From contig JAGAYZ010000025.1 in the NCBI GenBank assembly GCA_017940245.1, forward strand, positions 1 through 64,000: DNA of 64,000 bases. Direction: 5' to 3'. The DNA comes from Muribaculaceae bacterium. Lineage in GTDB: Bacteria; Bacteroidota; Bacteroidia; Bacteroidales; Muribaculaceae. The notes under the pieces are model-generated. The model was not told the origin of the DNA, searched no databases, and saw only the letters and a program-made list of their open reading frames with translations. Position 1 is the stretch's first letter. Each line of letters starts with the position of its first letter. Made by a program: the position numbers and the translations under genes. Shown in pieces: positions 6,429 to 53,218 of the stretch.

Positions 6429-6435
6429 CGTGTAT

Positions 6436-6960: not shown

Positions 6961-7027
6961 AAATCAGAATGAATCGGTAAAACGAATGCCAGCAGCAAGA
7001 ATGTAGTCATTGCCAGGACTGGTATTC

Positions 7028-8188: not shown

Positions 8189-8292
8189 AAGGCACACATT
8201 AGTATTTGGATAACATGGACAAATTTCCGACATTTTCGTCAATTATGCAAATTTTCCCCACGAAAAAAAGGGAACGGCACCGGCAGAAAATC

Positions 8293-8329
8293 AAAACGGG
8301 CACATCCGTTGAGTGGATGCACCCGTTTT
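8293..8329 (-). terminator. Terminator of the rpoBC operon
   Basis: Arms AAAACGGG-CA-CATCC and GGATG-CA-CCCGTTTT pair around a 7-base loop, leaving a 2-base internal mismatch. It sits 18 bases after the rpoC stop, and the minus strand continues with TTTTGATTTT. Confidence 0.7.
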
Positions 8330-8346
8330 GTCGTTATGGCATGTGG

Positions 8347-26510: not shown

Positions 26511-26841
26511 GTCGTTCTCGTTTTAACCGACAAAATTACTAATTAATTATGAATTATGAATGATGAATGATGAATTATTTGACTCCGCTCACCCCGGCAC
26601 GACTGTCACCGGCACGACTGTGGCGGGCTTACGCCCGGATATTCTCCCTAATATTTCTTCCAGAGTTCGCATCAGCATCCGTTTGTCTCATATTGAGGGG
26701 GGCTAAACGAGAATGATCTCTTGCCGATTAATGGTGATGCGGATAATTGCAAATGGTGAAATTTACGTTATGAAACGTGGCCACACAATAAATGAGGATT
26801 TTATTCGTTTCTCTATAATAAAAAAGTATGCATACACCATC
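26511..26841. repeat. Intergenic region between dut and the PorU gene, with short tandem repeats
   Basis: This 331-base divergent gap has an AT-rich run of GAATGAT-type repeats (about 26537-26578) and a 13-base direct repeat CCGGCACGACTGT at 26594-26606 and 26609-26621, followed by GGCGGGCTTACGCCC, a small GC-rich inverted repeat. No protein family is visible in its frames; the frame upstream of 26842 lacks secretion features. Confidence 0.5.
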
Positions 26842-34500: not shown

Positions 34501-35011
34501 GGGACAGGCCATGCAACTCATGCTTGACGGCAACAAAACGATTTACAACACCGTCAAGCAATATGCCACATGCAGCGATGAAGGCCGCAAAGTGAACGTT
34601 GCCTTCCCCCTGACCGGACTGGCAACAGGACACCACACACTCACCTTCATGGTGTGGGATGTGGCAGGCAACTCCACTTCCCAAACGATTAATTTCCTGG
34701 TTGACCGCAACAATGCCGTGTCGCTAGCCGTTGAGCAAGTTCCCGCTGTGGAAAAAGCCACGTTCAATCTCATGAACTCGTCACTGACGTCTACACCCTC
34801 GATGAACATCAAGGTCACCAACGCACAGGGCCATCTCGTGTGGAGCACCACCACAGATGCCTTCCCCGTGACCTGGGACTTAAAAGGCTCTAACGGGGAG
34901 CGCGTGCCGGCCGGACTCTACAAATTCTTCGGCACCTACCTCAACGGCAACAACTATGGAGGCACCTCCATCGACAACTTGATAGTGATTGACCCCATCG
35001 CGGGCAATTAA
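31556..35011 (+). CDS. C25-family protease, second PorU-like paralogue
   Basis: The 1151-residue product has a signal peptide (MQNKTLLRLATIVALCVAIPCTA, quoted in part), then the same domain order as the PorU-type gene at 26842: beta-rich N-terminal part with STGKWVKISVPTDGIYELTA, peptidase core with LIMFGEGTYDNRG, His 659 (YVGHAGG) and Cys 692/693 (TTACCD), then Ig-like modules and a FlgD-like end (ERVPAGLYKFFGTYL). The catalytic His and Cys are kept, so it is probably active. It is closer to the third paralogue (35055) than to the first by motif wording (VFNEFSSGTPDA, TACCDVAR). Whether it is a sortase or a surface protease is not known. Confidence 0.8.
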   Translation: MQNKTLLRLATIVALCVAIPCTALALNSKQFTTTSKLSTGKWVKISVPTDGIYELTADELAGMGFSDISRVAIYGSGGYMMSEVLDGSAPDDLKPVASMLINGKLYFYGCGAVNINLAQKNSLVGMAFQRTINAYSLLGHYFLTEEDAPLRVGSTTKNIPANITSPRTTSLAYWYHERELCSISHTGKDLLGEDLLNQLELEYTLPQIADGNIIVGVRAAAASTDSSYIICNLASGSETKAVSFSLSDSKLFSISGLIGWKYDITMPYGKATMSNQAESGKMIVRIDPALSTPPTTAKLDYAIMTYNRNNAFASPEEGQFKMWFSALKSTDVVALPGADADVMVWDLTDNRLPVNQKTTLRDGNLYFASTRTANTAQMIAFQPSRQQLKVSGYEAVANQNLHGLEVPDLLIVTNSAFAEQAKRLARLHHEHDGITATVVTQEQVFNEFSSGTPDATAVRLLCKMFYDRNSSKFKNLIMFGEGTYDNRGLVQRKTYPVITFESTESKDELTSYACDDYYGFLDDNSGASLNQCLLRIGVGRFTSSSLSEAKSDVDKVVKYLTDNDYGVWRNNFLLTADEGTITGTNSDIGLHSSQAEGIGNLFGQHNAFMHENKSYVEMFPRDPTETSIADVKRRTSLDGRRHIVEALNAGQYFMTYVGHAGGTVFTSHSRLWRSSDVQSNKFSHLPIVTTACCDVARYDSPSRGIAETMFHQPDGGAIALLTSSRSVKAQYNDELNRAFVTAMFTPDADGNFRTLGEAYMQAKQYKGKTEEPNKMSFLLMGDPAIRFNFPRPLMKVTAINGQTVANDAITISPMQRVTFEGCVMTRDGQSIDESFTGNATFSFYGPETYYTSYNIKISGWIETVKLYLERPLLAQVEGRVENGHFTGSFTVPRYEQSSEPMQLLLYAHKTGTEEMVNGGFANLNLGEYDATLAETDSQSPVIETMFLNDEASFAQNSAVQDDAMLYITASDDVSINMQNNTPGQAMQLMLDGNKTIYNTVKQYATCSDEGRKVNVAFPLTGLATGHHTLTFMVWDVAGNSTSQTINFLVDRNNAVSLAVEQVPAVEKATFNLMNSSLTSTPSMNIKVTNAQGHLVWSTTTDAFPVTWDLKGSNGERVPAGLYKFFGTYLNGNNYGGTSIDNLIVIDPIAGN

Positions 35012-35054: not shown

Positions 35055-38000
35055 ATGGCACAATTATTCAATAAACGACTGGCACTAGCATTGACCATGG
35101 CATGCTCAATGGCATTGGCAGCATGGTCGTTTCAGGCGAACATTTATTCCACATCTTCGGTCTTGTCATCGGGTAAATGGGTGAAAATTGAGATTCCCGA
35201 GGATGGTGTGTATGAAATCACTAGCGATGAGTTGGCTCAAATGGGCTTCAACGACATCAATAACGTGGCGCTCTATGGCTACGGCGGGCACATGCTTAAC
35301 GAGGTGCTTACCGGCACACACACCGATGACCTCAAGCAGATGCCCATGCTGCAAGTGGGCAACAAGTTGTGTTTTTACGCAAAAGGGGCATTGGAAACGA
35401 CCCTCAACAACCCCGCAAGCGCGATGCCATACTTCGACCGCACGCTTAACACCTACTCGCGAAATGGTTACTACTTCTTAACCGAGAATAATGGTGAGAG
35501 CCCATCGCGCATACGCAATTTTAAATGGGTAAACAATGAAAAAGCCACATGTCATGCCACCAGCTTAAACTGGTTCTTGCATGAACAGGAATTGAACTCA
35601 ATCTCACGCTCGGGCAAAGACTTGCTGGGTGAAAGGCTCTTCGACGTACCAGCCGAAGTTGATTACAACCTCCCCAATTTGGCCTCGACCAATCTCACCG
35701 TGCTCACCCGTGTGGCCGCCGTTATCACCTCTGCGTCGAACCAAATCGGGGCATCGGCTAGCGCATCGGTTATTGCCGGAGGCCAAAACCTGCCTTTGGA
35801 TTATTCTACCACGCTGATTCCGCGGCTCAAACCAAATTCTTTGGAAAGATATCACATCAAGGGACCAGTAGCCAGCGTGACTCTGCCCAGTATCTTGCCT
35901 TCAGGCAAGGTTAGAGTCAACAACGTGGTGCCTAGCCCCGACGGAGCCGATGCAACCATCTCAAATTCCTATCTGGATTACGTGATAATCACCTATGAGC
36001 AGCACAACTCTCTTTCGTCCGACAACTACAACCAGCTGGAAATGTTTTATCCAACTATAGAAGTAGGAGACACGATTTTGCTGCGCAACGCTTCGAGCAC
36101 GGCCATGGTGTGGAATCTGGACGGACCTGTTCCGGTGAGCCTGCAACGCCTCAACAACAGCTCCAACGAAGCGATGTTTACCTCGCCCACTATCGGGCGT
36201 GGTGCACATTTTGTAGCTTTTGACCCGAATAAAAAACTGCGTCGCATTACGGCTTTTGAAAGTATCGGTAATCAAAACCTGCACGCATTGGCAACCCCCG
36301 ACTACTTGATTTTTACACGTAAAGAATTTGTTGACGCTGCAGAGCAACTGGCTCAATTACACCGCTCACACGATGGAATGGACGTGCTGGTTGTGACGCA
36401 AGACCAGGTCTTTAACGAGTTTTCGTCGGGCACCCCCGACGCTATGGCGCTGCGCCTGTTCTGCAAAATGCTGTATGACCGCAACCCCAACAAATTCAAG
36501 TACCTGCTCATGTTCGGCCAGGGCACATTCGATAATCGACAGTTGATCTCTAAGAAAGAACGCACCCTTGTCACCTTTGAAACCGACAATAGCGACGATG
36601 AGGCACAGAGTTATTCCAGCGACGATTTCTATGGCATCCTGGGCGATGGCACCGGCTCAAAGATTTCCAGCGAGCGCATCTGTTTAGGTGTAGGCCGTCT
36701 CACTCCCGAGAATGTAGAAGAAGCCGAAGCCGCCGTGCTCAAAGTATCGAAATATGTCACAGAGCCCAACTACGGACCGTGGCGAAACAATTCCTTTATC
36801 GCGGCCGATGAAGGTAACAACGATTTGCACATATCCCAGGCTCAGGCCATCATCTACACGATGGAAAACACCAACGGTATTTTGCTGAATCAATATAAGG
36901 ACTATGTGCCTTTCTTCCCCAAAGCCGTCGATGAAGTGATGGCAGCCGAGAGCAATCGCTCGGCACCATCCACCACTCAATACATGGCCGACGCCTTGAG
37001 CCGTGGAATGTATTTTGCATCCTACGTGGGCCATGCCTATCATGGCGGATTCACGTCTAAGGCCAAGATGTGGCTCAGTTCGGATGTCACCAAGACAGCC
37101 TACACGCATCTGCCCATCATGACCACCGCTTGCTGCGATGTGGCTCGCTTCGATTCCAACGTGCGCGGCATTGCCGAGCACATGATTAACAAGGTCGATG
37201 GCGGTGCCATTGCATTGCTCACCGCATCACGCACAGTGTATGCCAACGACAATCATGCGCTGAACAACGCATTCACCAATGCGTTCTTCACCAGAAACAC
37301 AAATGGAGTCATGCCCACCCTGGGAGAGGTGACCATGAAGGCCAAGCAGTCGTTCACCTCGGCCAACAACAACAAGATGATGTTCTTGTTGCTGGGCGAC
37401 CCCGCTATCAGAATCAACTATCCACTGCCTCTGATCAAGACCACAAAGTTAAATGGCACAGCCATCGAAGATAGCATCACAGTGGCTATTGCTCCGATGC
37501 AATACCTCGACATCGAGGCTCAGGTGATGAGTGACGACGGGGAGACGCCCGACAACTCGTTCACCGGCGATGCCACGGTAACATTGTTTGATGCCGAGCG
37601 CTTCTACAAGTCGGTGAAACTGCAGTATATGTATTACGACATCAATTATCCACGGCAGCAATTGGCACAGGTCGATGCTAAAGTGGTGAACGGGAAACTC
37701 AAGGCACGACTACTGGTGCCGCGCGACCTGGGCATAACCACAGGCAACATGCGTCTGAGCCTGTATGCCCACAAAACCGGCACAAGCCAGATGGTCAATG
37801 GGCGCTTTGACAACCTGACGGTGAACACCGCCAATACCAGCACTCCCGTGACCGACAACCAGGCTCCGGTGATTACAGCCATGTATTTCGACGACGAGGC
37901 CACATTTGCCGACAACAAGACCACCACTCCCGATGGTATCCTCCACATCTCGGCCACCGATGAAACGGCGCTGAATATGGGGTCAGGGACTTCGGGCAGC

Positions 38001-38495
38001 ATGAAACTGGTGCTTGACAATGGTTCCGAATCGCTCTTCTTGATAAAGAACTGCGGTACGCTCAGTAATGGCGGTAAGTACCTCGACGTGGTGATGCCCA
38101 TGAGCGGAATGCAAGCCGGCAACCACACCCTCACGTTCACTCTGCAGGATGTGGCAGGCAACGTAGCCACCAAGTTCATCGACTTCAAAGTGGCCGAAAC
38201 GCCGAGCGTGGAACTGGCTGTAGCCGAATTGCCGGCAACCCACCAGGCCACTTTCAATGTTGCAAAGAATGCGTTGCCCGTACTGCCTGAACTCACCATC
38301 AAGGTGACCGACGCCACCGGAAAAATCGTGTGGCAGAAAACCGCCAGCCAGTTCCCCTGCACGTGGAACTTGACCGGACTTGACGGTAAACGCGTGCCCA
38401 ATGGCGTGTATCGCTTCTGGGGTACCTACGACGACGAGTCCTACTATGGTGGAACGTCGAAGCGCGACCTCATCGTGGTAGAACCGGCCAACTGA
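35055..38495 (+). CDS. C25-family protease, third PorU-like paralogue
   Basis: The 1146-residue product has a signal peptide ending near AAWSFQ, the N-terminal SSGKWVKIEIPEDGVYEIT part, peptidase core with LLMFGQGTFDNRQ, His 660 (YVGHAYHGG) and Cys 693/694 (TTACCDVARFD), and the C-terminal KRVPNGVYRFWGTYDDE module. It starts 43 bases after the second paralogue and is followed by a terminator, so the two form the end of the rex-led group. The duplicated pair arose by tandem duplication, as the shared wording shows. The function is probably cell-surface protein processing. Confidence 0.8.
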   Translation: MAQLFNKRLALALTMACSMALAAWSFQANIYSTSSVLSSGKWVKIEIPEDGVYEITSDELAQMGFNDINNVALYGYGGHMLNEVLTGTHTDDLKQMPMLQVGNKLCFYAKGALETTLNNPASAMPYFDRTLNTYSRNGYYFLTENNGESPSRIRNFKWVNNEKATCHATSLNWFLHEQELNSISRSGKDLLGERLFDVPAEVDYNLPNLASTNLTVLTRVAAVITSASNQIGASASASVIAGGQNLPLDYSTTLIPRLKPNSLERYHIKGPVASVTLPSILPSGKVRVNNVVPSPDGADATISNSYLDYVIITYEQHNSLSSDNYNQLEMFYPTIEVGDTILLRNASSTAMVWNLDGPVPVSLQRLNNSSNEAMFTSPTIGRGAHFVAFDPNKKLRRITAFESIGNQNLHALATPDYLIFTRKEFVDAAEQLAQLHRSHDGMDVLVVTQDQVFNEFSSGTPDAMALRLFCKMLYDRNPNKFKYLLMFGQGTFDNRQLISKKERTLVTFETDNSDDEAQSYSSDDFYGILGDGTGSKISSERICLGVGRLTPENVEEAEAAVLKVSKYVTEPNYGPWRNNSFIAADEGNNDLHISQAQAIIYTMENTNGILLNQYKDYVPFFPKAVDEVMAAESNRSAPSTTQYMADALSRGMYFASYVGHAYHGGFTSKAKMWLSSDVTKTAYTHLPIMTTACCDVARFDSNVRGIAEHMINKVDGGAIALLTASRTVYANDNHALNNAFTNAFFTRNTNGVMPTLGEVTMKAKQSFTSANNNKMMFLLLGDPAIRINYPLPLIKTTKLNGTAIEDSITVAIAPMQYLDIEAQVMSDDGETPDNSFTGDATVTLFDAERFYKSVKLQYMYYDINYPRQQLAQVDAKVVNGKLKARLLVPRDLGITTGNMRLSLYAHKTGTSQMVNGRFDNLTVNTANTSTPVTDNQAPVITAMYFDDEATFADNKTTTPDGILHISATDETALNMGSGTSGSMKLVLDNGSESLFLIKNCGTLSNGGKYLDVVMPMSGMQAGNHTLTFTLQDVAGNVATKFIDFKVAETPSVELAVAELPATHQATFNVAKNALPVLPELTIKVTDATGKIVWQKTASQFPCTWNLTGLDGKRVPNGVYRFWGTYDDESYYGGTSKRDLIVVEPAN

Positions 38496-42499: not shown

Positions 42500-42688
42500 T
42501 CAGAATCTCGCAAATTCTTTATTATCGAAGTCAAGAATGAGGCAACAGTAGATGTCCAATGTGGGATATGTACATACTATGAGTGACCCTTGGTCTTTCT
42601 CATAATACATATCATGCGTGGGCTTCTGCGTTGCTCGTTCAACTTCGATAGGCAATGCGAGAGCCTTGATACGTGGGACGAGTAACAA
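42500..42688 (-). CDS. Possible small or remnant gene, function unknown
   Basis: A 62-residue frame opposite to its neighbours (begins MLLVPRIKALALPIEVERAT, ends LDFDNKEFARF). Its composition looks protein-like and it lies in an otherwise empty 825-base gap, but it has no promoter, signal peptide or known motif. It may be the remainder of a lost gene. Low support. Confidence 0.2.
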   Translation of the reverse strand: MLLVPRIKALALPIEVERATQKPTHDMYYEKDQGSLIVCTYPTLDIYCCLILDFDNKEFARF

Positions 42689-42773
42689 GTACAGACTCCC
42701 GCGCTTTCTATTTGTGTTACAAAGGCTTACGTTTTACAGTCACGCGTGGGGAGTTGCGGGACGCAAATCTTTC

Positions 42774-43973
42774 ATGCCCATGAAAAGAATATATTTTGTT
42801 CCGTTAGTGTTGCTTCTGCTCACCTCGTTTCAGTTAAGCGCAATAGAGCTCAAGGTTGGTGAGAGAACTACATTGTATTTAAGCAATCCTCCACAATACC
42901 TGGCTGGTTGCATTTGGACAAGTAGCCATCCTTTTGATGTCGTTTTCGACCCCACCCCTGCCTCCTATGCGACATCTGCAACAATTAAAGCAGTAAGGCC
43001 ATTAGACACAACTTCTCCTTGTATTATTCACTGCGAATACAAATACAATGAGCTAGATCCTATCAGTGGGCGATACATATACCAGCGATCAGGTTATCAG
43101 GACTGGTATGTGTATGTCAAAGCAAATGACCCAACTAGCGTTACAATCACACCAGCCTCCACAAGCATATTCGTGGGTGAAAGAGCCAGACTTGAGGCCA
43201 CGATTTACCCAAGTAACGCATCTACAACTCTTGACTGGTGGTTAGACAAAGTCGATGGAGATGCTTTCTATACACAAAGCCAACAAAGCGTAATCAATGT
43301 GACCGGTGAAGCACCTGGTGTAGTATATGCCAATGTGAGAACAAGCAATGGCTTGACAGCAAGATGCAAAATCACCATCAATTCTAAAGATCCCACATCA
43401 ATCAGCATTACAAGCCCGGGAACAATGATAGTGGGCGACCGGAAAACTCTATATCCAAGCATTCAACCACCAGGAGCCACAACTTCGCTCACATGGAAAT
43501 CAAGCGATGACAGGATTGTTGAAGTATCCAATGGTGTACTCATTGCTAAATCTAAAGGAACTGCAAAAATTACGGTTACAACTCATAATGGAAAGACATC
43601 ATCGTGTGATGTTACCGTTAAGAATGCCCCTGAAAAGCCTACTTCAATTAAAATTCCTCCAACATTGACGGTATACACCTCGGTCACCAAGACTATTGAC
43701 GTGACACTTGCGCCAGATGACGCCGAGAGCACATTAAAATGGTCTTCCAGCGATAGTAACATAGCCTCTGTATCTACAGCCGGAAAAGTTACAGGGAAAA
43801 ACGCAGGAAAAGCTACCATCACTGTTACCACTGCCAACAATTTATCGGCTTCATGCGAAGTTACTGTAATTGAGATGCCGGCCGGATTGACGTCTTCTAA
43901 GATTCAGAATAAAATCAACAACGTCAATAATCTTTTAAATAGAACCATCAACAAAGTACCCACCTCTAAATAA
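42774..43973 (+). CDS. Secreted protein with three BIG2-type Ig-like domains
   Basis: The ATG at 42774 (or 42780) gives a signal peptide MKRIYFVPLVLLLLTSFQLS; the frame continues upstream without secretion features. After a divergent first domain come about three group 2 bacterial Ig-like modules, seen in VTITPASTSIFVGERARLEA, SITSPGTMIVGDRKTLYP and SIKIPPTLTVYTSVTKTIDV, the last two ending in the typical GTAKITVTT and GKATITVTT strands. The 399-residue product ends without an anchor. BIG2 domains usually serve adhesion or display. It starts the plus-strand series that leads into the Cys-rich peptide genes (8 bases to the next gene) and is AT-richer than the core genes. Confidence 0.75.
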   Translation: MPMKRIYFVPLVLLLLTSFQLSAIELKVGERTTLYLSNPPQYLAGCIWTSSHPFDVVFDPTPASYATSATIKAVRPLDTTSPCIIHCEYKYNELDPISGRYIYQRSGYQDWYVYVKANDPTSVTITPASTSIFVGERARLEATIYPSNASTTLDWWLDKVDGDAFYTQSQQSVINVTGEAPGVVYANVRTSNGLTARCKITINSKDPTSISITSPGTMIVGDRKTLYPSIQPPGATTSLTWKSSDDRIVEVSNGVLIAKSKGTAKITVTTHNGKTSSCDVTVKNAPEKPTSIKIPPTLTVYTSVTKTIDVTLAPDDAESTLKWSSSDSNIASVSTAGKVTGKNAGKATITVTTANNLSASCEVTVIEMPAGLTSSKIQNKINNVNNLLNRTINKVPTSK

Positions 43974-45217: not shown

Positions 45218-46108
45218 ATGAAGCTTAAATTGATAACTTTATTAATATTATTATTTGTGCCTGCATTCTTGATGGCGCAAGGGAAATATCGTGTAAATAC
45301 CACAAAACTAAATGTAAGAGTTTCACCGTCTGTAAAAGCCCGGGCCATAGGGTCGTTAAAAAAAGGTGACTTGGTAATGGTAAAATCCATCGCCAATGGT
45401 TGGGCTTTAATCAAGTACAAGTCCAAGGAACGCTATGTGAGTGCAAAATATCTCACTCTGATTTCAGCGGCTGAAGATGAATCCAAGCCCACACAAAAAC
45501 CAGCCAAGACAGAAACATATAGCTATCAAAAAACTAATGATGAAATCCCACCACGTTCATCTTCCCGAAATCAGGAGGCACAAGAAAAATACTATGATGA
45601 TGACGATGAAGATCGACTGTCGCTTTTCGTGTCTGGTTTCGCCGGAATGACATCTTTCTCGTGGTCCGGGACTACACCAAAATATGGAATAGCCTATGGT
45701 GGCGGTGTCGGTTTAAGATACAAGTACAATCTGTTCAGTCGCAAAATCCCTTCTGGGTTGTTTGGCGACTTGACTGTTGAGTATGCTCATCGTGGCTCAA
45801 ACGCCTATCCCATCGATTATATTTCTACTCATTTTCAACCCATCGGTTACACTTATTCTTTTAAGCACTCAATAGGTGTTTTTGTTAAAGCCGGAGGATA
45901 TTTCGCATACCCGATTTCAGGCAGTATTGGTCGTTATAATACAAGAATGGATTATGGACTTTCTGGTGCTGTAGGATTTCGGTTTAAACGATTTGAATTG
46001 AGTGGATCTTACGACTATGGATTCGCCGATATTACAGATAACGCCCCTGTCGAATTAAAAAATATGGGAGCTATTCTTACTTTATCTTACCATTTTAAAT
46101 TAAAATAG
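45218..46108 (+). CDS. SH3b-domain protein with C-terminal outer-membrane barrel
   Basis: The 296-residue product has a signal peptide (cleavage near FLMAQG), a bacterial SH3 domain at residues 22-80 (TTKLNVRVSPSVKARAIGSL, then VMVKSIANGWALIKYKSKE), an acidic low-complexity linker ending in YYDDDDEDR, and a barrel-like C-terminal half (GGGVGLRYKYNLF ... MGAILTLSYHFKLK). SH3b domains often bind peptidoglycan, so it may link the wall to the outer membrane. It ends one base before the first Cys-rich gene, so the two are surely co-transcribed. Confidence 0.75.
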   Translation: MKLKLITLLILLFVPAFLMAQGKYRVNTTKLNVRVSPSVKARAIGSLKKGDLVMVKSIANGWALIKYKSKERYVSAKYLTLISAAEDESKPTQKPAKTETYSYQKTNDEIPPRSSSRNQEAQEKYYDDDDEDRLSLFVSGFAGMTSFSWSGTTPKYGIAYGGGVGLRYKYNLFSRKIPSGLFGDLTVEYAHRGSNAYPIDYISTHFQPIGYTYSFKHSIGVFVKAGGYFAYPISGSIGRYNTRMDYGLSGAVGFRFKRFELSGSYDYGFADITDNAPVELKNMGAILTLSYHFKLK

Positions 46109-46109
46109 C

Positions 46110-46622
46110 ATGGATAATCTATTACAAAGTCGCCGTGCATTCTTTAAGAATCTGGCGAGCAAATCATTACCCATACTTGCAGGTATTTCATTAGGACCCA
46201 TCCTATTTTCATGTGATACCGACGATGAACCTCTCAATAGAGCATTAGCAGGCAATAATGGTGGCTCTTCTTGTTCTTCTTGCGGCAACGGGTGCGGGAC
46301 GAATTGCAGCAGTAACGCAACATCCTCGCCATGTTCTTCTTGTGGCAACGGGTGCGGCACGAATTGTAGCAGTAACGCAACAAGTAATTGTTCTGACTGT
46401 TCGAGGCAGTGCGCCAGCAATTGTGAAACAGGTTGTGACAACGGTTGTTATTATGACTGTAAAGTGAGTTGTGGTGGTGGATGTGATAGAGCTTGTTATA
46501 ATTGTTCTGCAATGTGCAGTTCTAGTTCAAAGGTCGCTTGCTCTAGTTGTGGCGCAGCGTGCAAAAATAACTGCTCAACAACTTGTCAATTGGGTTGTTA
46601 TCAACAACTCAAGAATAATTGA
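46110..46622 (+). CDS. Cys-rich CXXX-repeat precursor 1 with twin-arginine lipoprotein signal
   Basis: The 170-residue product has a Tat motif (QSRRAFFKNLASKSLPIL), a hydrophobic core and a lipobox (ILFSC), so it is probably a Tat-exported lipoprotein. The mature part carries about 27 Cys. From CSDCSRQCASNC on they recur at three to four residue steps, and two 20-residue units repeat in tandem before that. Similar proteins in Bacteroidales are grouped, from memory of the NCBIfam descriptions, as targets of a radical SAM CXXX-repeat system. The final modification is unknown. Gene order and spacing place it as first of four precursors. Confidence 0.8.
   Translation: MDNLLQSRRAFFKNLASKSLPILAGISLGPILFSCDTDDEPLNRALAGNNGGSSCSSCGNGCGTNCSSNATSSPCSSCGNGCGTNCSSNATSNCSDCSRQCASNCETGCDNGCYYDCKVSCGGGCDRACYNCSAMCSSSSKVACSSCGAACKNNCSTTCQLGCYQQLKNN
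46272..46391 (+). repeat. 60-bp tandem duplication inside precursor 1
   Basis: Two in-frame 60-base units encode CSSCGNGCGTNCSSNATS plus two residues each. The units differ at few bases, so the duplication is recent. Confidence 0.85.
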
Positions 46623-46698
46623 TGTCTAAAGTTTATTGGAACTTAAACAAAGTCTTTAAGAAGACAATTTAATAATCAAATTTCAACATTTTACTCTT

Positions 46699-46989
46699 AT
46701 GGAAAAGAACAAAACTAATGAAAATGTGCAGTCACGCCGTCAGTTTTTCAAGCGTGCTGCCCAGGGGGCACTGCCCATTCTTGGAGCTGCCCTTCTGAGC
46801 CAGATTCCATTCATCTCCCATGCCCAAGAAAGCCAAAACGAGATGGGATGTCGACTAAATTGTAGTGGTATGTGTAGAGATAACTGCCGCCTGAATTGTA
46901 CTGGAACTTGCAAAAGAAATTGTGGCGGGAACTGCACTGGGACATGTCACGGCACATGCAAAACCTCATGTATTCGAGGTTCCAAATAG
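46699..46989 (+). CDS. Cys-rich CXXX-repeat precursor 2 with twin-arginine signal
   Basis: The 96-residue product has a Tat signal (QSRRQFFKRAAQGALPILGA, cleavage near SHAQ) and a mature part with 11 Cys in perfect four-residue register, from CRLNCSGMCRDNC to CHGTCKTSC. The residues between are small, polar or basic (Thr, Gly, Asn, Arg, Lys). It is the shortest and cleanest of the four precursors and shows the core repeat best. It has no lipobox. Confidence 0.82.
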   Translation: MEKNKTNENVQSRRQFFKRAAQGALPILGAALLSQIPFISHAQESQNEMGCRLNCSGMCRDNCRLNCTGTCKRNCGGNCTGTCHGTCKTSCIRGSK

Positions 46990-46999
46990 TATCGCCTTT

Positions 47000-47035
47000 A
47001 AAGGCTCCGCTCCACTTTGGTGGGGTGGAGCCTTT
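47000..47035 (+). promoter_or_regulatory. Stable RNA hairpin between precursors 2 and 3
   Basis: Bases 47000-47015 pair with 47020-47035 over 16 bp (two G-U pairs) around the loop TTTG, 10 bases after the stop of precursor 2. No U run follows, so it is more likely a transcript-stabilising or partial-termination element than a full terminator. Confidence 0.65.
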
Positions 47036-47063
47036 GAACTGCAACAAGCAAATATAAAATCCC

Positions 47064-47675
47064 ATGAAAAAAGATCAGCAATTACAATCTCGGAGAGAGT
47101 TCTTGAGAGGTGCATCACAAAAGATTCTCCCTATTCTAGGATTTCTCATGATTCCTGGGCAATCTCTATTTGCAAAGAGCATCTCTGCCACCGGTTGCGG
47201 AGGAACTTGCAGCGGAGATTGCTATAGATCATGTGGAGGCTCATGCCAAAATAGTTGTTTGGGCTTTTGCGAGACTTCGTGCATGTATACTTGTGATAGA
47301 GCTTGTGTGGAATCATGCGATTCTCTTTGCACTCAGGCATGTGCCGACGATTGCACTTATACTTGCGATGGGACATCCGATGCGGCCAAAAACTGCAAAG
47401 ACTGTAATCATTCTTGCTCAAAGACCTGTAAAAAAGGATGCAAAGACAGCTGCGACACCACTTGCAAAGGTTCATGTTACAAGGGGTGCAAAGACAGTTG
47501 CGACACGACATGTAAGGGTGAATGTGTGAAGGCTTGCAAGGGAACTTGCAAAGGGAGTTGCGGTGGCAACTGCGGCTGGGCTTGCGTCGGTCGATGCCAA
47601 AACACGTGTTCCGGTTGTTTAGGCACATGCATGGGAACTTGCTTTGGCTCTTGCTTTTATTCTATGTATTACTAG
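47064..47675 (+). CDS. Cys-rich CXXX-repeat precursor 3 with twin-arginine signal
   Basis: The largest precursor, 203 residues, has a Tat signal (QSRREFLRGASQKILPILGF, then a hydrophobic stretch to LFAKS). The mature part has about 38 Cys: an unbroken run of 15 at four-residue steps, a short break around DGTSDAAKNCKDC, then a second long run ending at FGSCFYSMYY. Many inter-Cys triplets are of the types KGT, KDS, DTT. Ribosomal products with this regularity are substrates rather than enzymes. The gene contains a 48-bp internal duplication. Confidence 0.82.
   Translation: MKKDQQLQSRREFLRGASQKILPILGFLMIPGQSLFAKSISATGCGGTCSGDCYRSCGGSCQNSCLGFCETSCMYTCDRACVESCDSLCTQACADDCTYTCDGTSDAAKNCKDCNHSCSKTCKKGCKDSCDTTCKGSCYKGCKDSCDTTCKGECVKACKGTCKGSCGGNCGWACVGRCQNTCSGCLGTCMGTCFGSCFYSMYY
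47436..47531 (+). repeat. 48-bp tandem duplication inside precursor 3
   Basis: Two in-frame units encode GCKDSCDTTCKGSCYK and GCKDSCDTTCKGECVK. Confidence 0.85.
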
Positions 47676-47688
47676 TTTATTATTGCTT

Positions 47689-48072
47689 ATGAACAGAAGA
47701 CAATTTTTACGAAAAGCGGCAGGCTCTTTATTGCCGATACTTGTTGGCATAACTGTGGGATTAAATTCACCGTTGATAGTCTCAGCACAAATAAAGCCGA
47801 CAAATTGCAACAGTTCGTGCCAGCAGACGTGTAGAGCAATGTGCATCGGAATGTGCCGCGATACGTGTAGAGCAATGTGCTTCGGAATGTGCCGCGGTGG
47901 TTGTACAGGTTGTGCAAATACGTGCGGAAGAACATGTGGTCATGGTAGCTCTTGTATGGCCTGTTGCTGTGGACGTTGTGCCAACGGTTGTAAGTCAACT
48001 TGCATGGGAAGCAATGCAATGAAAACTGACTCTAGTCAAGTCGCTAAGCCCGATTCCATAAAATTAAAATGA
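47689..48072 (+). CDS. Cys-rich CXXX-repeat precursor 4 with twin-arginine signal
   Basis: The start MNRRQFLRKAAGSLLPILVG was chosen since it places the Arg pair at the N-terminus; the frame is open 15 codons upstream inside the previous gene. After the signal (to VSAQ) come about 19 Cys, first in strict CXXX register (CRAMCIGMCRDTC), then less regular with ACCCGRC. The tail SSQVAKPDSIKLK is free of Cys. The stop overlaps the start of the radical SAM gene by ATGA, so precursor and enzyme are translationally coupled. Confidence 0.8.
   Translation: MNRRQFLRKAAGSLLPILVGITVGLNSPLIVSAQIKPTNCNSSCQQTCRAMCIGMCRDTCRAMCFGMCRGGCTGCANTCGRTCGHGSSCMACCCGRCANGCKSTCMGSNAMKTDSSQVAKPDSIKLK
47827..47898 (+). 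repeat. 36-bp tandem duplication inside precursor 4
   Basis: Two in-frame units encode TCRAMCIGMCRD and TCRAMCFGMCRG. Confidence 0.8.
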
Positions 48073-49310
48073 ATGGTATGAACGAAGATAATAAACCCTT
48101 TAAAGAAAATGACCCTGGTTGGCAGGGGGGAGTTGCCAAGAACATTACGTTTATTGTGACGAAGGACTGCCAGCTGGCCTGCAAGTATTGTTACCTTGTG
48201 GGCAAGAACGAGAAGGAGCGAATGTCGTGGGAGACCGCCAAGGCGGCTATTGACTATATCCTGGGGCACGAGGCCGACTTCCCGGAGGCGAGCGTGGTGT
48301 GGGACTTTATCGGTGGCGAGCCATTCCTTGAGATTGAGTTGATCGACAAGATTTGCGACTATTTGAAAACGGAAATGTTCCGCTTGCGACACCATTGGTT
48401 CGACAGCTATCGCTTCTCGTTCTCGACCAACGGCATCAACTACCACACCGACAAAGTGCAGGATTTCATCAAGAAGAATCACACGCACCTGTCGATAGGC
48501 ATCACCATCGACGGCACACGCCGCAAGCACGACCTGAACCGCATCTGGAAAGGCGATGGACCGGAGCGCGGCTCCTACGACGACGTGGTGCGCAACATCC
48601 CGCTGTGGCTGGAGCAGTTCCCCGGCGGCGGCACCAAGGTAACCATCAGCAGTGCCGACATTCCCTACATCTGCGAGAGCGTGCTGCACCTTTACAGCCT
48701 AGGCATCCATGAGGTGAACATCAACTGCGTATTTGAGGATGTGTGGAGCGAGGGTGACGACAAGCGCTTTGAAGACCAACTGATGCAACTGGCCGATGCC
48801 ATCATCGACGGCGGTTACTATCAAGACTATGCCTGTTCGTTTTTCAGCGAGCACATCGGCAAGCCGCTCGACCCTGAGCTGGAGAATCAGAACTGGTGCG
48901 GTGCAGGCAAGATGCTGAGCGTGGATGCGGCGGGCAACTTCTATCCCTGCACACGTTTTGCGGCCTACTCGCTGCGTGAGAAACGTCCCATCATCATCGG
49001 CAACGTGCGCGACGGCATCGATAAGAACAAGTTGCGCCCCTTCCTCACGCTCGACCGCCTGACGCAAAGTCCGCGTGAGTGCATCGACTGCGAGGTGGCC
49101 AGCGGATGTGCTTGGTGCCAGGGCGAGAACTACGACGCGGCTGCCACGCCCACCGTCTATCAGCGAGCCACCGCCATCTGCCTGATGCACAAAGCCCGAG
49201 TGCGCGCCAATAACTACTACTGGAACCGCTTGTTCCGCAAGCTGGAACTGGAAGGGGAGCGTGAACAATGGGAGAAGAACAAACCGGAGTCTAACGATGT
49301 AATCTGTTGA
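48069..49310 (+). CDS. Radical SAM/SPASM peptide maturase of the CXXX-repeat system
   Basis: The 413-residue product has the radical SAM cluster motif CQLACKYC (Cys 34, 38, 41), the GGEPFLE strand, and a C-terminal SPASM-type set of Cys (NWCGAGKM, NFYPCTRFA, ECIDCEVASGCAWC, AICLMHK) for auxiliary iron-sulfur clusters. Such enzymes form thioether, C-C or epimerised residues in ribosomal peptides. It follows the four precursors, overlaps the last by 4 bases, and precedes a second maturase-like gene by 4 bases. From memory of NCBIfam, the closest named family is the radical SAM maturase with CXXX-repeat target. Unlike the precursors it is GC-rich. It is cytoplasmic, so modification would precede Tat export. 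Confidence 0.88.
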   Translation: MNGMNEDNKPFKENDPGWQGGVAKNITFIVTKDCQLACKYCYLVGKNEKERMSWETAKAAIDYILGHEADFPEASVVWDFIGGEPFLEIELIDKICDYLKTEMFRLRHHWFDSYRFSFSTNGINYHTDKVQDFIKKNHTHLSIGITIDGTRRKHDLNRIWKGDGPERGSYDDVVRNIPLWLEQFPGGGTKVTISSADIPYICESVLHLYSLGIHEVNINCVFEDVWSEGDDKRFEDQLMQLADAIIDGGYYQDYACSFFSEHIGKPLDPELENQNWCGAGKMLSVDAAGNFYPCTRFAAYSLREKRPIIIGNVRDGIDKNKLRPFLTLDRLTQSPRECIDCEVASGCAWCQGENYDAAATPTVYQRATAICLMHKARVRANNYYWNRLFRKLELEGEREQWEKNKPESNDVIC

Positions 49311-49314
49311 TGCC

Positions 49315-50247
49315 ATGTTACAGTATATGATTATCCTGCTGGACGATACCAGCACTTCGTTTTGCCACTATGAAGTGAACAAAACAGAGCGACACCTGAT
49401 CAGCCTTGATGACTTGCGAGCCGGAATACGTCTGGCCATGATCGAGAACCTGAACGTGCAGATGGTCTATCCCGACTATGAATTGCCTCAAGAATATAAA
49501 GAGTTGATCAACACCATCGACCATAGCGACATCGTTCCCATAGCATTAAACCACAATGATGCCGATGTGGTTGTCACCGACGGGTGGAACAGCACACCGC
49601 CGGCAGGTGGCGTGGCTGTGATACGCACCACGCTGGCCGAATTGCTACAGCATGGCGAAGACGTGAGCAAGTGGCTTGCAACCGTAACACGATTGAATAT
49701 CGTCATTACCGATGTTGCTTCGTTCACCGACGATGACCAAAAAGCATACAGCAATTTCTTGAACCTGCTGGGTGAAAACATTGACAAACTATATGTGAAT
49801 GGAGCTTCGCCTCAACTGAATCTGCTCACCGACCGCATGATGCTCAGCGCCATGAACAACTGCGGTGCCGGCGACACGTGCATCACGCTGGCTCCTAACG
49901 GCAAGTTCTACGTGTGCCCGGCTTTCTACTATGAAAATCCCGATGAAAGCGTAGGTGATTTGGAAAATGGCATCAACATCCCCAACAAGCAACTCTACAA
50001 GTTGGACTATGCGCCACTATGCCGACAGTGCGACGCATGGCACTGCAAGCGATGCGTGTGGCTCAACAGACAGCTCACGCTGGAAGTGAACACGCCCGGC
50101 CGCGAGCAATGTGTGATGTCCCACTTAGAGCGCAACGCATCGCGCCAACTGCTGACGAGCATCAGGCAAAAGGGCACTTTCTTGCCCGACAAGCCTGAGA
50201 TTACTGAGATAGATTACCTAGATCCATTTGACAAAATCAAGAATTAA
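49315..50247 (+). CDS. CXXX-repeat peptide maturase-like protein, SPASM-type without radical SAM motif
   Basis: The 310-residue product lacks CxxxCxxC at the N-terminus, yet its second half carries a SPASM-like Cys set: NCGAGDTCITLAPNGKFYVC, then PLCRQCDAWHCKRC and GREQCVMSH. The N-terminal ~180 residues look like a Rossmann or degenerate barrel (MIILLDDTSTSFCHYEV). It may be a paralogue that lost the SAM site and now presents substrate or clusters to the radical SAM enzyme encoded just before. NCBIfam has a CXXX repeat peptide maturase family with this neighbourhood (from memory). Confidence 0.75.
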   Translation: MLQYMIILLDDTSTSFCHYEVNKTERHLISLDDLRAGIRLAMIENLNVQMVYPDYELPQEYKELINTIDHSDIVPIALNHNDADVVVTDGWNSTPPAGGVAVIRTTLAELLQHGEDVSKWLATVTRLNIVITDVASFTDDDQKAYSNFLNLLGENIDKLYVNGASPQLNLLTDRMMLSAMNNCGAGDTCITLAPNGKFYVCPAFYYENPDESVGDLENGINIPNKQLYKLDYAPLCRQCDAWHCKRCVWLNRQLTLEVNTPGREQCVMSHLERNASRQLLTSIRQKGTFLPDKPEITEIDYLDPFDKIKN

Positions 50248-50268
50248 TCATAATAACAAACAAATAGT

Positions 50269-50550
50269 ATGGCAAAGAAAAAAGTAGGACAGGTAACACC
50301 TGTCGAGCGCGACGAGATTCAGCGGCTATTTGAACGCCGTAATGGGTTGAATGAACTGGCCAAGATTCTCACGGCCGATAATGCGGAACTATACGAGCGT
50401 CTGGTAACCGATATGGGCGAGACAGGCACAAAGTTCCAGCAATGGTGGGACACGATGGCCCAGAAATATAGCTGGGAAAGCATCCCCGACGGCAACTGGG
50501 AAATCAACTTCGACACTTGTGAAATCTTTTTAGTTACGCCCGAAGTATGA
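50269..50550 (+). CDS. CXXX-repeat modification system accessory protein
   Basis: The 93-residue, Cys-poor product has a basic N-terminus, two helices (VERDEIQRLFERRNGLNELA and NAELYERLVTDMGE) and a WWDTMAQKYSWESIPDGNW segment. By size and place it could act as a RiPP recognition element or chaperone that brings precursors to the maturases, though it does not look like a PqqD winged helix. It follows the second maturase by 21 bases and overlaps tatA by 4 bases (ATGA). Confidence 0.7.
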   Translation: MAKKKVGQVTPVERDEIQRLFERRNGLNELAKILTADNAELYERLVTDMGETGTKFQQWWDTMAQKYSWESIPDGNWEINFDTCEIFLVTPEV

Positions 50551-50771
50551 CACTTGCAATGATTGGAACCACCGAGCTGCTGCTCGTTGGCGGACTGGCT
50601 CTGCTGCTATTTGGCGGAAAGAAACTGCCCGAGATGATGCGTGGACTGGGACAAGGGGTGCGCGAGTTCAAAAAGGGAGTGAACGACATCAAGGAACCGA
50701 TTGCCGAAGACACGGAACAATCGGAGGAAAATGAAACTTCGGAATCGACCAAAGACACACCATCGGCATGA
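50547..50771 (+). CDS. tatA: Twin-arginine translocase subunit TatA
   Basis: The 74-residue product has the short membrane helix ELLLVGGLALLLFGGKKLPE with the FG(G)KKLPE hinge, the amphipathic helix MMRGLGQGVREFKKGVNDIK, and an acidic tail, the standard TatA layout. TatA oligomers form the pore for folded proteins. ATGA overlaps on both sides couple it to the accessory gene and to tatC. Confidence 0.93.
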   Translation: MTLAMIGTTELLLVGGLALLLFGGKKLPEMMRGLGQGVREFKKGVNDIKEPIAEDTEQSEENETSESTKDTPSA

Positions 50772-51553
50772 GCGATGATCAAATGATGACATTCGGCGGG
50801 CACCTGGAGGTGCTCCGCCGAATGATGTTTCGCATTCTGGGTGTGACACTGATGCTGGCAGTGGTGATATTCTGTTTCAAAGAAACCACCTTCAGCATTC
50901 TGTTTGCGCCCAGCAACAGCGAGTTTGTCACTTATCGGTTCATCGAGCGACTATGTGCAGCCGTGGGCATCAACTTCCACTTTGCTCCCTATAACGTGGC
51001 TCTCATCAACACCGAGTTGTCGAGCCAATTCATGACGCACCTCACCACTTCAATCTATCTGGCTCTGTTAGGCGCATCGCCCTATATCGTGGTAGAATTG
51101 TTTCGATTCATCACTCCGGCACTCTACGACGATGAAAGGCGCTACAGCGTAGCTATCGCAATAGCGGTTTATTCCCTGTTCATTTTGGGTGTGCTCATGA
51201 GTTATTATGCGCTCTTTCCATTTGCATTCCGCTTTTTAGGCACATATCAAGTGGATGCACGAGTGGTGAACCAAATCAACTTGGATTCCTATATCACCAC
51301 CTTTACTACGCTTACATTTTTAATGGGTGTCGTGTTTCAAATTCCGGTGGTGACTTTTTTCTTGGCAAAGATGGGAATTGTCGATGCCGCAATGATGGCA
51401 CACTATCGGCGTCATGCACTGGTGCTGATTGCGCTGGTAGCAGCGATCATCACCCCACCCGATTTACTCACGCTGGTACTGGTTACGGTGCCCATGTATG
51501 CGCTTTACGAAGTGAGTATTCATGTGGCGGCGCACGTCACCCCCACCGAATAA
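50768..51553 (+). CDS. tatC: Twin-arginine translocase subunit TatC
   Basis: TatC is the receptor for twin-arginine signals. The 261-residue product has the N-terminal FGGHLEVLRRMMFRI signature with its conserved LR, six membrane spans (for example LMLAVVIFCF, AIAVYSLFILGVLMSYYALF), and the motif FRFLGTYQVDARVV before span four. Stop and start overlap with tatA. It is the last gene of the series and is followed by a terminator. No other Tat substrate is visible in the window besides the four Cys-rich proteins. Confidence 0.95.
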   Translation: MSDDQMMTFGGHLEVLRRMMFRILGVTLMLAVVIFCFKETTFSILFAPSNSEFVTYRFIERLCAAVGINFHFAPYNVALINTELSSQFMTHLTTSIYLALLGASPYIVVELFRFITPALYDDERRYSVAIAIAVYSLFILGVLMSYYALFPFAFRFLGTYQVDARVVNQINLDSYITTFTTLTFLMGVVFQIPVVTFFLAKMGIVDAAMMAHYRRHALVLIALVAAIITPPDLLTLVLVTVPMYALYEVSIHVAAHVTPTE

Positions 51554-51593
51554 TCTCAAACTCCCCAAATCTTGATATTTCTTTGAGATTTGG
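51548..51593 (+). repeat. Left 46-bp direct repeat around the ATPase gene
   Basis: Starts GAATAATCTCAAACTCCCCA and ends GAGATTTGG; it matches 53421-53466 at 41 of 46 bases. It contains the tatC terminator stem. Confidence 0.85.
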
Positions 51594-51602
51594 GGATTTT
51601 TT
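51563..51602 (+). terminator. Intrinsic terminator after tatC
   Basis: CCCCAAATCT pairs with AGATTTGGGG (51586-51595) and is followed by ATTTTTT. Confidence 0.85.
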
Positions 51603-51778: not shown

Positions 51779-53218
51779 CTACAATTTATCCGCAAATAAA
51801 TGTTCCAAGTTCACCGTTTGATCTATGACTCCAGCATTGGCATTAAGCTTTAATCCCCATGGTGTTATTAAGGTCATGTGCAAGGCATATCGAGTCTTCG
51901 TCACACTGCGAAACGTAGAACAACGTTCACGAAGTTCCTTATTGTATTTTGGGGTAATTTCATAGTCGTATGCTGAATATTTCATTTCACAGAGATTTAT
52001 TACTTTGTCACGACGGGTTATAAGCATATCTATCTGTGCACCAGTGGTATATTGATCACCAGCAAAACGCCATGAACTCACCTCTGTTTGTACGCCAGCA
52101 ATGCCTAAGGCCTGTTTGATTTGTGGAACATGCAACAGACACACTTGCTCAAATGCGATACCAGTCCAGGTACGTCTTGAAGGACTGTCAATAAGATTTG
52201 TCCAATGGTGTTCGTCTTTGCCATTATACCTTTCCACAAATCTTTTGTAGAAAAGAATGGATAAGTCTGTGAGTTGATACAATGCATCACGCTCCTTCTT
52301 GCCAAATGCACTATATTTTCTGATAAAATCGCAATTTACAAGATTCTTCAGAGCCTTGGTTAGTGTCCCATTTGCACTCACTTTGGCTTGAGCTACAATC
52401 TCCTGCCGAGTAATGCCCATATTCTTTTTACTGATGGCATCTACTATACGTATATAGAAATCTGAATCCTTGAACAACGACCTAAAGAGGAATTCATATT
52501 CATCATGAAGTGGCGCACCTTCACGGAAAAACATTTCGTCAACATTAGCATCAAGACTCAGATTCTTTTTCAACATACTCAGGTAAAGAGGTACTCCTCC
52601 AAATACCATGTAAGCGTCAAGAACAAGAAAACGATCCCAATCCACGCCATTCGATTTTAGCAAAGCTTCTGATTCATGAAGATTAAATGGAGCGAGATAA
52701 ATACGCTCAGTTGTACGGTTATAAAGTCCACCCTTACCGCTTATAAATTTGTCTGTCATCCATGTTGTAGCACTTCCGCAAACAATCATCTTAAGGTTGT
52801 CTTGCGTAGATCCCCAACTATTCCAAAACCATTCAAATGCTTTCAGGAATTGTCCAGATGGAACATCGAACCAAGGCAATTCGTCGAGGAAAACAATGAT
52901 GCGTTTCTTTCGCAACCCCTTTAAGTAGTCACGTAAAGCGGTGAAAGCATCCATCCATGTTTCAATGGGAGGTATAGCTTTGCCATCTTTGGAATTTTGG
53001 CGGAGCATATCACAGAAAGCATCCAGTTCTTCTTGCTTACTGCCTTCGAAGATGCCTGTAGCATAATAATCAAACTTCTCATTGAAGAATTCCTTTACAA
53101 GAAAAGTCTTTCCTATACGCCTACGTCCATACACAGCAACCAGCTCTGCCTTATTTGAGTTGAATACTGAACTCAGCTTTTCTAGTTCTTTTTTCCGTCC
53201 GATGATTTTCCGTATCAT
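51779..53218 (-). CDS. AAA-family ATPase with C-terminal nuclease-like (DUF234-type) domain
   Basis: The 479-residue product has Walker A YGRRRIGKT near residue 30, Walker B RIIVFLDELPW, a sensor-like MIVCGSATTWMT, a winged-helix middle part (GITRQEIVAQAKVSANGTLT) and a C-terminal GAQIDMLITRRDKVINLCEMK, which resembles the D...ExK core of a PD-(D/E)XK fold. This is the layout of the large Bacteroidota/archaeal ATPase family (PF01637 plus DUF234), common as accessory genes in several copies per genome and of unclear role. It is AT-rich compared with the neighbours and bracketed by 46-bp repeats and similar hairpins. Confidence 0.85.
   Translation of the reverse strand: MIRKIIGRKKELEKLSSVFNSNKAELVAVYGRRRIGKTFLVKEFFNEKFDYYATGIFEGSKQEELDAFCDMLRQNSKDGKAIPPIETWMDAFTALRDYLKGLRKKRIIVFLDELPWFDVPSGQFLKAFEWFWNSWGSTQDNLKMIVCGSATTWMTDKFISGKGGLYNRTTERIYLAPFNLHESEALLKSNGVDWDRFLVLDAYMVFGGVPLYLSMLKKNLSLDANVDEMFFREGAPLHDEYEFLFRSLFKDSDFYIRIVDAISKKNMGITRQEIVAQAKVSANGTLTKALKNLVNCDFIRKYSAFGKKERDALYQLTDLSILFYKRFVERYNGKDEHHWTNLIDSPSRRTWTGIAFEQVCLLHVPQIKQALGIAGVQTEVSSWRFAGDQYTTGAQIDMLITRRDKVINLCEMKYSAYDYEITPKYNKELRERCSTFRSVTKTRYALHMTLITPWGLKLNANAGVIDQTVNLEHLFADKL

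Follow-up and report, generated by a model that had tools for sequence, protein, structure and literature searches.

A gene cluster of the CXXX-repeat type is described here in a window of 64,000 nucleotides, the whole stretch analysed, from a Muribaculaceae bacterium (assembly GCA_017940245.1, contig JAGAYZ010000025.1, positions 1 to 64,000, forward strand). The cluster encodes four cysteine-rich precursors with twin-arginine signals, a radical S-adenosylmethionine (SAM)/SPASM peptide maturase (rSAM hereafter), a related SPASM partner, a small accessory protein and a TatA/TatC pair of the twin-arginine translocation (Tat) pathway. With slightly better than even confidence, we consider that it would carry out thioether-type cross-linking in the cytoplasm, followed by export of the product to the envelope through a Tat pair of its own. 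The cluster tatAC genes are a second, separate lineage beside the housekeeping pair. This second lineage is absent from the initial annotation, as are the SH3-domain gene ahead of precursor 1, the lipoprotein-type signal of that precursor and the Leu-Pro motif of the signals.

Gene content and limits of the cluster

The genes and features of the unit are listed by coordinates, strand and identity.

45218-46108, plus: SH3_3-domain protein, likely the first gene of the unit (PF08239, 39.7 bits, cut-off 27)
46110-46622, plus: precursor 1, 170 aa, 27 Cys; twin-arginine signal with Leu-Pro, lipobox LFSC, acidic DTDDE
46699-46989, plus: precursor 2, 96 aa, 11 Cys, the shortest and most regular; TIGR04117, Cys-x3-Cys steps
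47064-47675, plus: precursor 3, 203 aa, 38 Cys; over the TIGR04117 cut-off
47689-48072, plus: precursor 4, 127 aa, 19 Cys; TIGR04117, 27.3 bits
48069-49310, plus: rSAM, 413 aa, ending in Cys; TIGR04115
49315-50247, plus: SPASM partner lacking the SAM site (CXXX repeat peptide maturase), 310 aa; TIGR04119
50269-50550, plus: small accessory protein, 93 aa; TIGR04116
50547-50771, plus: cluster tatA; TIGR01411
50768-51553, plus: cluster tatC, of a lineage apart from housekeeping TatC; TIGR00945 and trees
51562-51596, plus: terminator-like hairpin closing the unit, 14 pairs followed by a run of six T (consensus scan)

All nine genes that the initial annotation had placed in one plus-strand unit from 46110 to 51553 were found, with tight gaps of 76, 74, 13, -4, 4, 21, -4 and -4 bases from precursor 1 to tatC. 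Genes and order are borne out; the start at 46110 is probably too late, because the SH3-domain gene ends one base ahead of precursor 1. This upstream protein has a weak outer-membrane barrel match as well (PF13568, 23.8 bits, below the cut-off of 27). The closing hairpin begins 8 bases past the end of tatC. The start of precursor 4 is most likely the ATG at 47689, chosen by eye, rather than the TTG at 47644 given in the list of open reading frames (ORFs). Third-position G+C lies between 0.35 and 0.44 in the precursors versus 0.76 in the rSAM gene, and no RNA families were found near the cluster.

Family assignment of precursors and maturation proteins

The families are, as first named, those of the NCBIfam CXXX-repeat system (TIGR04114-TIGR04117, TIGR04119): rSAM scored 631.3 bits with TIGR04115 (cut-off 350), the partner 236.7 bits with TIGR04119 (cut-off 150) and the accessory protein 96 bits with TIGR04116 (cut-off 50). 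Since these models name the enzyme set and three are passed, the kind of system is already known by name. The hidden Markov model search proposed with the initial annotation was positive for the three maturation proteins and differed for the precursors. With the target model TIGR04117, precursor 3 alone exceeds the cut-off of 50 bits (61 bits), precursors 2, 4 and 1 scoring 44.3, 27.3 and 13.6 bits, and no precursor reaches the cut-off of 20 of the repeat model TIGR04114 (best 15.7). Pfam gave no matches for precursors 1 to 4. All six TIGR04117 matches up to E 1 in the source genome, which is 80% complete, fall in this cluster.

The second-best model for rSAM was the PapB family NF047865 (185.8 bits, E 1.2e-54, under its cut-off of 340), followed by weaker matches to the SCIFF maturase (E 2e-29), sulfatase maturase TIGR03942 (E 2e-14) and cyclophane formers (E 3e-11 and weaker). 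The SCIFF maturase CteB was the sole sequence match of rSAM in the PDB at E<=0.01 (5e-21). The CX3CX2C motif and seven SPASM Cys are kept in 81 of 81 rSAM sequences. The partner has the CteB fold and the seven SPASM Cys, which are kept, and no SAM-cluster motif; in an alignment of 51 of the 68 non-redundant sequences found, C17 alone is invariant N-terminal of residue 183, and CX3CX2C is absent. Judged by its sequence, the partner is a fold relative of radical SAM/SPASM enzymes and not a functional radical SAM enzyme. The structure model of the accessory protein (predicted local distance difference test score 93.9) had no match in the PDB at E<=0.001.

Conservation and distribution of the cluster

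Related loci were obtained by a one-genome-per-species scan, which confirmed 350 rSAM relatives; the best 80 were kept, so that the set leans to close relatives. All 80 of the 80 related loci keep the genes that they contain in the order rSAM, partner, accessory, tatA, tatC, all on one strand. The partner is missing in two loci and the accessory gene in six, always at the end of a locus. Sixty loci have tatC, nine have it cut off and 11 lack it although at least 1.5 kb is available. Next to the rSAM gene, 77 of 80 loci have precursor-like ORFs, 76 of them in the filtered precursor set described below and the other, L060, with a long precursor dropped by the length filter; the remaining three loci begin within about 600 bases of rSAM. 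At L030, positions 6258-11761 hold an extra partner, accessory gene, tatA and precursor pieces, as if partly duplicated.

When ORFs of at least 90 aa were grouped into families, none recurred in the flanks of more than six of 81 loci. Further core genes were therefore rejected. No family of metal transporters or regulators is found repeatedly around these 81 loci, and the same holds for dedicated peptidases and immunity-type genes.

In a phylum sample of 395 genomes the partner family occurs in six, own genome included, so the system appears uncommon outside the family of the source. Loci L033, L046, L051 and L086 come from metagenome-assembled genomes titled Clostridia, Ruminococcus, Clostridium and Pseudoflavonifractor, respectively. 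The title of L086 is probably a mislabel, as its TatC has the same sequence as the one in G010, which belongs to the source's own family. Locus L032 comes from a cultured relative, Xylanibacter rarus 109.

Within that family, a sample of 297 genomes was divided into 37 cluster genomes, defined by an rSAM over the TIGR04115 cut-off, and 260 others. Cys is the last residue of rSAM in 80 of 81 loci and in 119 of 120 proteins, where the one without it is named as partial. It is present in 25 of 30 family-sample genomes (30 of the 37 cluster genomes had loci), and as a universal rSAM feature it was rejected on that count. The terminal Cys is missing in three of four genomes without linked tatC versus two of 26 with it (p 0.009, a weak result as the genomes are related). 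Locus L233 (G233:C33:8500-18500) has two TIGR04115-type rSAM genes in tandem, the second divergent (420 bits, cut-off 350) and lacking the terminal Cys.

The cysteine repeat

All four precursors have Cys at four-residue steps, as originally described. Precursors 1 to 4 contain 17, 10, 33 and 12 Cys-x3-Cys steps, where 2000 shuffles of each gave means of 2.6, 1.1, 3.8 and 1.9 and maxima of 10, 5, 11 and 8; since the observed number exceeds all shuffles in each precursor, the spacing is not due to chance.

Precursors from the related loci were collected as ORFs with at least six Cys-x3-Cys and fewer than 260 residues, which kept 141 of 169 candidates (duplicate window pieces included). One of them, L018:1004, is not a real precursor; it is included in the repeat, composition and Leu-Pro counts (141) and was dropped from the lipobox count (140). 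There is one precursor in 41 loci and there are two to eight in 36. The gap between successive Cys is exactly four in 2077 of 2289 cases. Repeat bodies consist of 22.8% Cys, 16.1% Gly, 16.0% Ser and 9.3% Thr, with about 3.6% Leu, Ile and Val together. No residue other than Cys is fixed in the repeat. At X3, Ser, Gly, Thr, Asn and Ala together account for 80.5%, and at X2 Gly accounts for 37.9%; X1 varies most and is the richest in Lys/Arg (entropies 3.67, 3.16 and 3.06 bits for X1 to X3); 19% of the tripeptides between Cys contain Asp or Glu.

The 141 bodies comprise 71 with an even and 70 with an odd number of Cys, and repetition among the X residues is slight (X2 at lag 2, z 2.5; X3 at lag 4, z 3.3). 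A donor-acceptor pairing rule among the Cys is not supported by this nearly balanced parity and slight repetition. The lack of parity favours independent units and disfavours disulfide pairing. The precursors of L032, L042 and L060 have a long non-repeat domain with a GY.YVDLGLSVKWA motif after or between Cys arms, for which no Pfam family exceeded its cut-off (best Lcl_C in L032, E 0.0021, under cut-off).

A separate Tat lineage

The cluster TatA and TatC pass TIGR01411 (62 bits, cut-off 53.9) and TIGR00945 (158.2 bits, cut-off 132.7). The housekeeping tatC of the source genome lies on contig C53, with a tatA-like gene ahead of it (by eye). In a genus sample of 40 genomes, two TatC were found in each of the eight cluster-bearing genomes and exactly one in each of the other 32. 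Across the family sample TatC is present in 37 of 37 cluster genomes versus 210 of 260 others, and at least two copies occur in 21 of 37 versus seven of 260. One of these seven, G068, has a partner gene beside TatC at a contig edge; in G028, G082, G089 and G101 the second TatC is partial or broken by stops; G088 and G220 have two near-complete copies and no cluster. TatC adjoins rSAM in 33 of the 37 cluster genomes, in 12 of which no other TatC was found. As nine of these 12 sole-copy genomes are at least 90% complete, a second TatC may have been missed in single cases.

A tree was built from 100 TatC sequences, namely the full-length copies of the 37 cluster genomes, 26 from cluster-less genomes and 15 of the 60 from related loci. 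One clade of 48 holds 46 of the 49 linked rows, including all 12 sole copies, with a support of 99 (Shimodaira-Hasegawa-like approximate likelihood ratio test, quick tree) and 100/100 (careful tree). The clade also contains a second TatC from G010, beside an accessory gene at L239, and a long-branch copy from G263. The four sole TatC copies not linked to rSAM all fall outside the clade. L239 (G010:C11:346000-357000) is a second CXXX-type locus of its genome, with accessory gene, tatA, tatC and a weak partner fragment; rSAM or precursor was not found within its 11 kb.

Pfam Tat-signal matches at E<=0.005 occur in each of the eight genus genomes with both TatC (eight of 21 such genomes were scanned). 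The 12 genomes with the cluster TatC alone have no such match below E 0.09, and seven have none up to E 1; the model is lossy, as the CXXX precursors are missed too.

Signal peptide and Leu-Pro motif

The four precursors of the window all have RR-x-F, and none exceeds the cut-off of 22.7 of the Pfam Tat-signal model PF10518 (best 9.1 bits, precursor 4). The miss may be due to a Leu-Pro that replaces the usual Gly-rich stretch. With the first Arg numbered 0, Pro stands at +13 in 133 of 141 precursors versus none of 22 ordinary Tat signals from nine family members that have the cluster; Leu-Pro occupies +12/+13 in 123 of 141. By eye, the eight exceptions for Pro are one non-precursor, two register errors, three with Pro one residue earlier and two without Pro.

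All 13 precursors at loci that lack a linked tatC retain Pro (TatC elsewhere was checked for the family-sample genomes alone), as do, by eye, all four precursors found in G042, G046 and G016, where only a housekeeping-type TatC was found; the locus of G046, L043, belongs to both sets. The pattern used found no precursor in G209. Persistence of the motif beside a housekeeping-type TatC alone suggests that Leu-Pro more likely serves maturation. As a contact for a dedicated TatC it is not favoured, since it persists where the cluster TatC was not found. We infer that the twin-arginine signal doubles as the leader recognised by the maturation proteins, with Leu-Pro as part of the site.

Lipobox precursors and their neighbours

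A lipobox was scored as a Cys at +19 to +36 with two or more Asp/Glu among the nine residues that follow. By this rule 29 of 140 precursors are predicted lipoproteins. Precursor 1 is one of them and the sole member of this cluster with a lipobox and acidic export signal (LFSC-DTDDE). Such an acidic start resembles the surface export signals of Bacteroidota, as given in PMC5080379, and precursor 1 is a predicted surface lipoprotein. Lipobox precursors are richer in Cys, with a median of 27 versus 14 in the others (p 3e-6).

A related SH3-domain gene lies directly upstream of ten of the 29 lipobox precursors (window included) versus none of the 111 others, an association with p 3e-8 in which some loci are close relatives, so that the effective number is smaller. 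A separate search for this gene located it in ten of the 80 related loci, in nine directly upstream of a lipobox precursor and in L075 upstream of the accessory gene. SH3_3 occurs in all nine upstream proteins from other loci, and the barrel in two of nine at E<=0.01, under cut-off. Nineteen lipobox precursors have no SH3 gene, and the upstream proteins of nine of them were scanned: four are Ig-like (immunoglobulin-like) Big_2 proteins, one has an InlB-type repeat, one a weak barrel match, one is DnaJ-like and Cys-rich, and two gave nothing. The window itself has a Big_2 protein at 42618-43973.

Together, the lipobox, the SH3 or Ig-like neighbours and the non-repeat domains favour an envelope structure over a small secreted antibiotic. 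The product would be periplasmic or, in the lipoprotein class, located on the outer surface next to proteins with SH3 or Ig-like domains, probably as a rigid stalk or coat rather than a small diffusible peptide.

Proposed mechanism and alternative explanations

Cysteine modification and export of a folded product, both implied by the initial annotation, fit the genomic evidence. In the proposed mechanism rSAM, probably with the SAM-site-less partner and the accessory protein, would join the repeated Cys to carbons close by in their own chain, forming thioether rings, most likely one thioether per Cys. Each Cys may be an independent modification unit. The partner could act as an electron relay or as a second substrate-binding unit, since PapB needs intermolecular electron transfer between turnovers (PMC10470005). 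Ring formation would take place in the cytoplasm, and the cluster TatA/TatC would then deliver the stiffened chains to the envelope. Use of Tat would be explained by the difficulty of threading a cross-linked chain through Sec.

Several observations weigh against this mechanism. The Asp/Glu acceptor of PapB has no counterpart here: in 2077 of 2289 gaps the next Cys occupies its place, so that the mechanism requires a ladder of Cys-to-Cys links or else an acceptor at X3 or X1. Among runs of at least four Cys, even lengths are slightly more common than odd (134 versus 107). As to a dedicated export route, four of 37 cluster genomes use no linked TatC, and the linked TatC of L073, L076 and L085 fall outside the clade on long branches, a single clade for all linked TatC not being rejected (approximately unbiased test, p 0.154). 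Genome G125 (83% complete, cluster TatC alone) has two weak-match ORFs with ordinary-looking Tat signals. Conservation of Leu-Pro, for its part, could be through common descent.

A bolder form of the thioether mechanism, which we hold possible but doubtful, has the Tat branch specialised for a single class built by a radical SAM enzyme and sometimes the sole reason why Tat survives. The signal would then be export ticket and leader at once, with Leu-Pro as the site, and the mature chain a rigid covalent rod formed by a continuous thioether ladder with a small ring per Cys, up to about 40 per chain, and fixed to the outer surface as stalk or coat.

The rSAM might instead perform other chemistry, such as conversion of Cys to formylglycine, epimerisation or carbon-carbon cyclisation, in which the thiols are not donors. 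Sulfatase maturase and cyclophane-former SPASM models do match rSAM, and the repeat has no acceptor of the PapB type; models of thioether formers match much more strongly (PapB E 1e-54, SCIFF maturase E 2e-29), and with Cys alone fixed in the repeat we regard such chemistry as rather unlikely. That the precursors are thiol-rich metal binders, with most Cys free for Cu(I), Zn or Fe-S, a minor rSAM change and Tat exporting the loaded chain, seems unlikely. It would suit Tat as the route for cofactor-loaded proteins, one class of copper storage proteins being Tat-exported, and the 22.8% Cys of the repeat bodies. Copper storage proteins line helices with Cys. The bodies here, rich in Gly, Ser and Thr and with only about 3.6% Leu, Ile and Val, seem unlike a helix bundle, the precursors are neighbours of the rSAM gene in 77 of 80 loci, and the flanks show no recurrent family of metal transporters or regulators, the commonest family there being found at six of 81 loci.

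Secreted antimicrobials or signals, cut from the precursors as small active peptides with Tat merely as exporter, are the usual context in which most rSAM peptides are discussed, and several divergent precursors per locus recall bacteriocin arsenals. We find this distinctly unlikely given the lipobox with acidic start in 29 of 140 precursors, the three precursors with a long non-repeat domain after or between Cys arms and flanks in which a dedicated peptidase or immunity-type gene is not recurrent (best family in six of 81 loci). Many secreted Cys-rich proteins are disulfide-bonded, and the precursors could be ordinary proteins of that kind, with the rSAM substrate elsewhere; this is very improbable, as the even and odd Cys totals (71 and 70) show that full pairing is not enforced and the precursors stand beside rSAM in 77 of 80 loci, the other three beginning within about 600 bases of it.

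Relation to known systems

The CXXX families reportedly go back to Haft and Basu 2011. The initial annotation held the chemistry and role to be undescribed, and this seems so, text searches of a limited literature collection having found no paper on a CXXX-repeat product. As far as searched, there is also no description of a tie to a separate Tat lineage, of the Leu-Pro motif or of the lipobox/SH3 class. In a 2023 survey of Bacteroidales clusters for ribosomally synthesised and post-translationally modified peptides (RiPPs; PMC10352776), a word search found neither CXXX nor Tat as whole words.

PapB, the maturase of the ranthipeptide freyrasin, is the nearest named rSAM family after the cluster's own, and shares many Cys with a four-residue spacing to the acceptor. 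We know of no separate SPASM partner or Tat for PapB. The rSAM here is under the PapB cut-off (185.8 bits against 340) and there is no Asp/Glu at the acceptor place; the PapB spacing is Cys-X3-Asp/Glu and its product has six rings, according to PMC9413430. With respect to CteB (PDB 5wgg, 5why), the rSAM match omits the first 80 CteB residues and the partner is without CX3CX2C. These 80 residues are presumably the region of its leader-binding domain.

In bufferins, Cys-containing RiPPs modified by MNIO enzymes and exported through Sec, the modified precursors likewise bear a signal peptide; they differ in using Sec rather than Tat and MNIO rather than rSAM and in having few Cys. Preliminary data of the bufferin authors have the signal peptide as part of the enzyme recognition sequence, and use of the general export machine in a natural host has been shown experimentally for bufferins alone, via Sec (both in PMC12452194). 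If the proposed mechanism is true, a Tat-exported chain with tens of candidate sites would extend ring-forming chemistry to protein-sized, repeat-built materials, and would explain the second Tat pair kept by some gut and rumen Bacteroidales. Bacillus subtilis TatAdCd is likewise a Tat pair whose genes adjoin that of one substrate, PhoD, which differs in being a phosphodiesterase and not a modified Cys-repeat protein.

Neighbouring genes

Directly after the cluster, on the minus strand at 51779-53218, lies a gene for an ATPase_2/AAA protein with a weak DUF234 match. Three tandem plus-strand genes at 26713-30261, 31556-35011 and 35055-38495 encode proteins of 1146 to 1182 aa that all contain a Peptidase_C25 (gingipain-type) domain.

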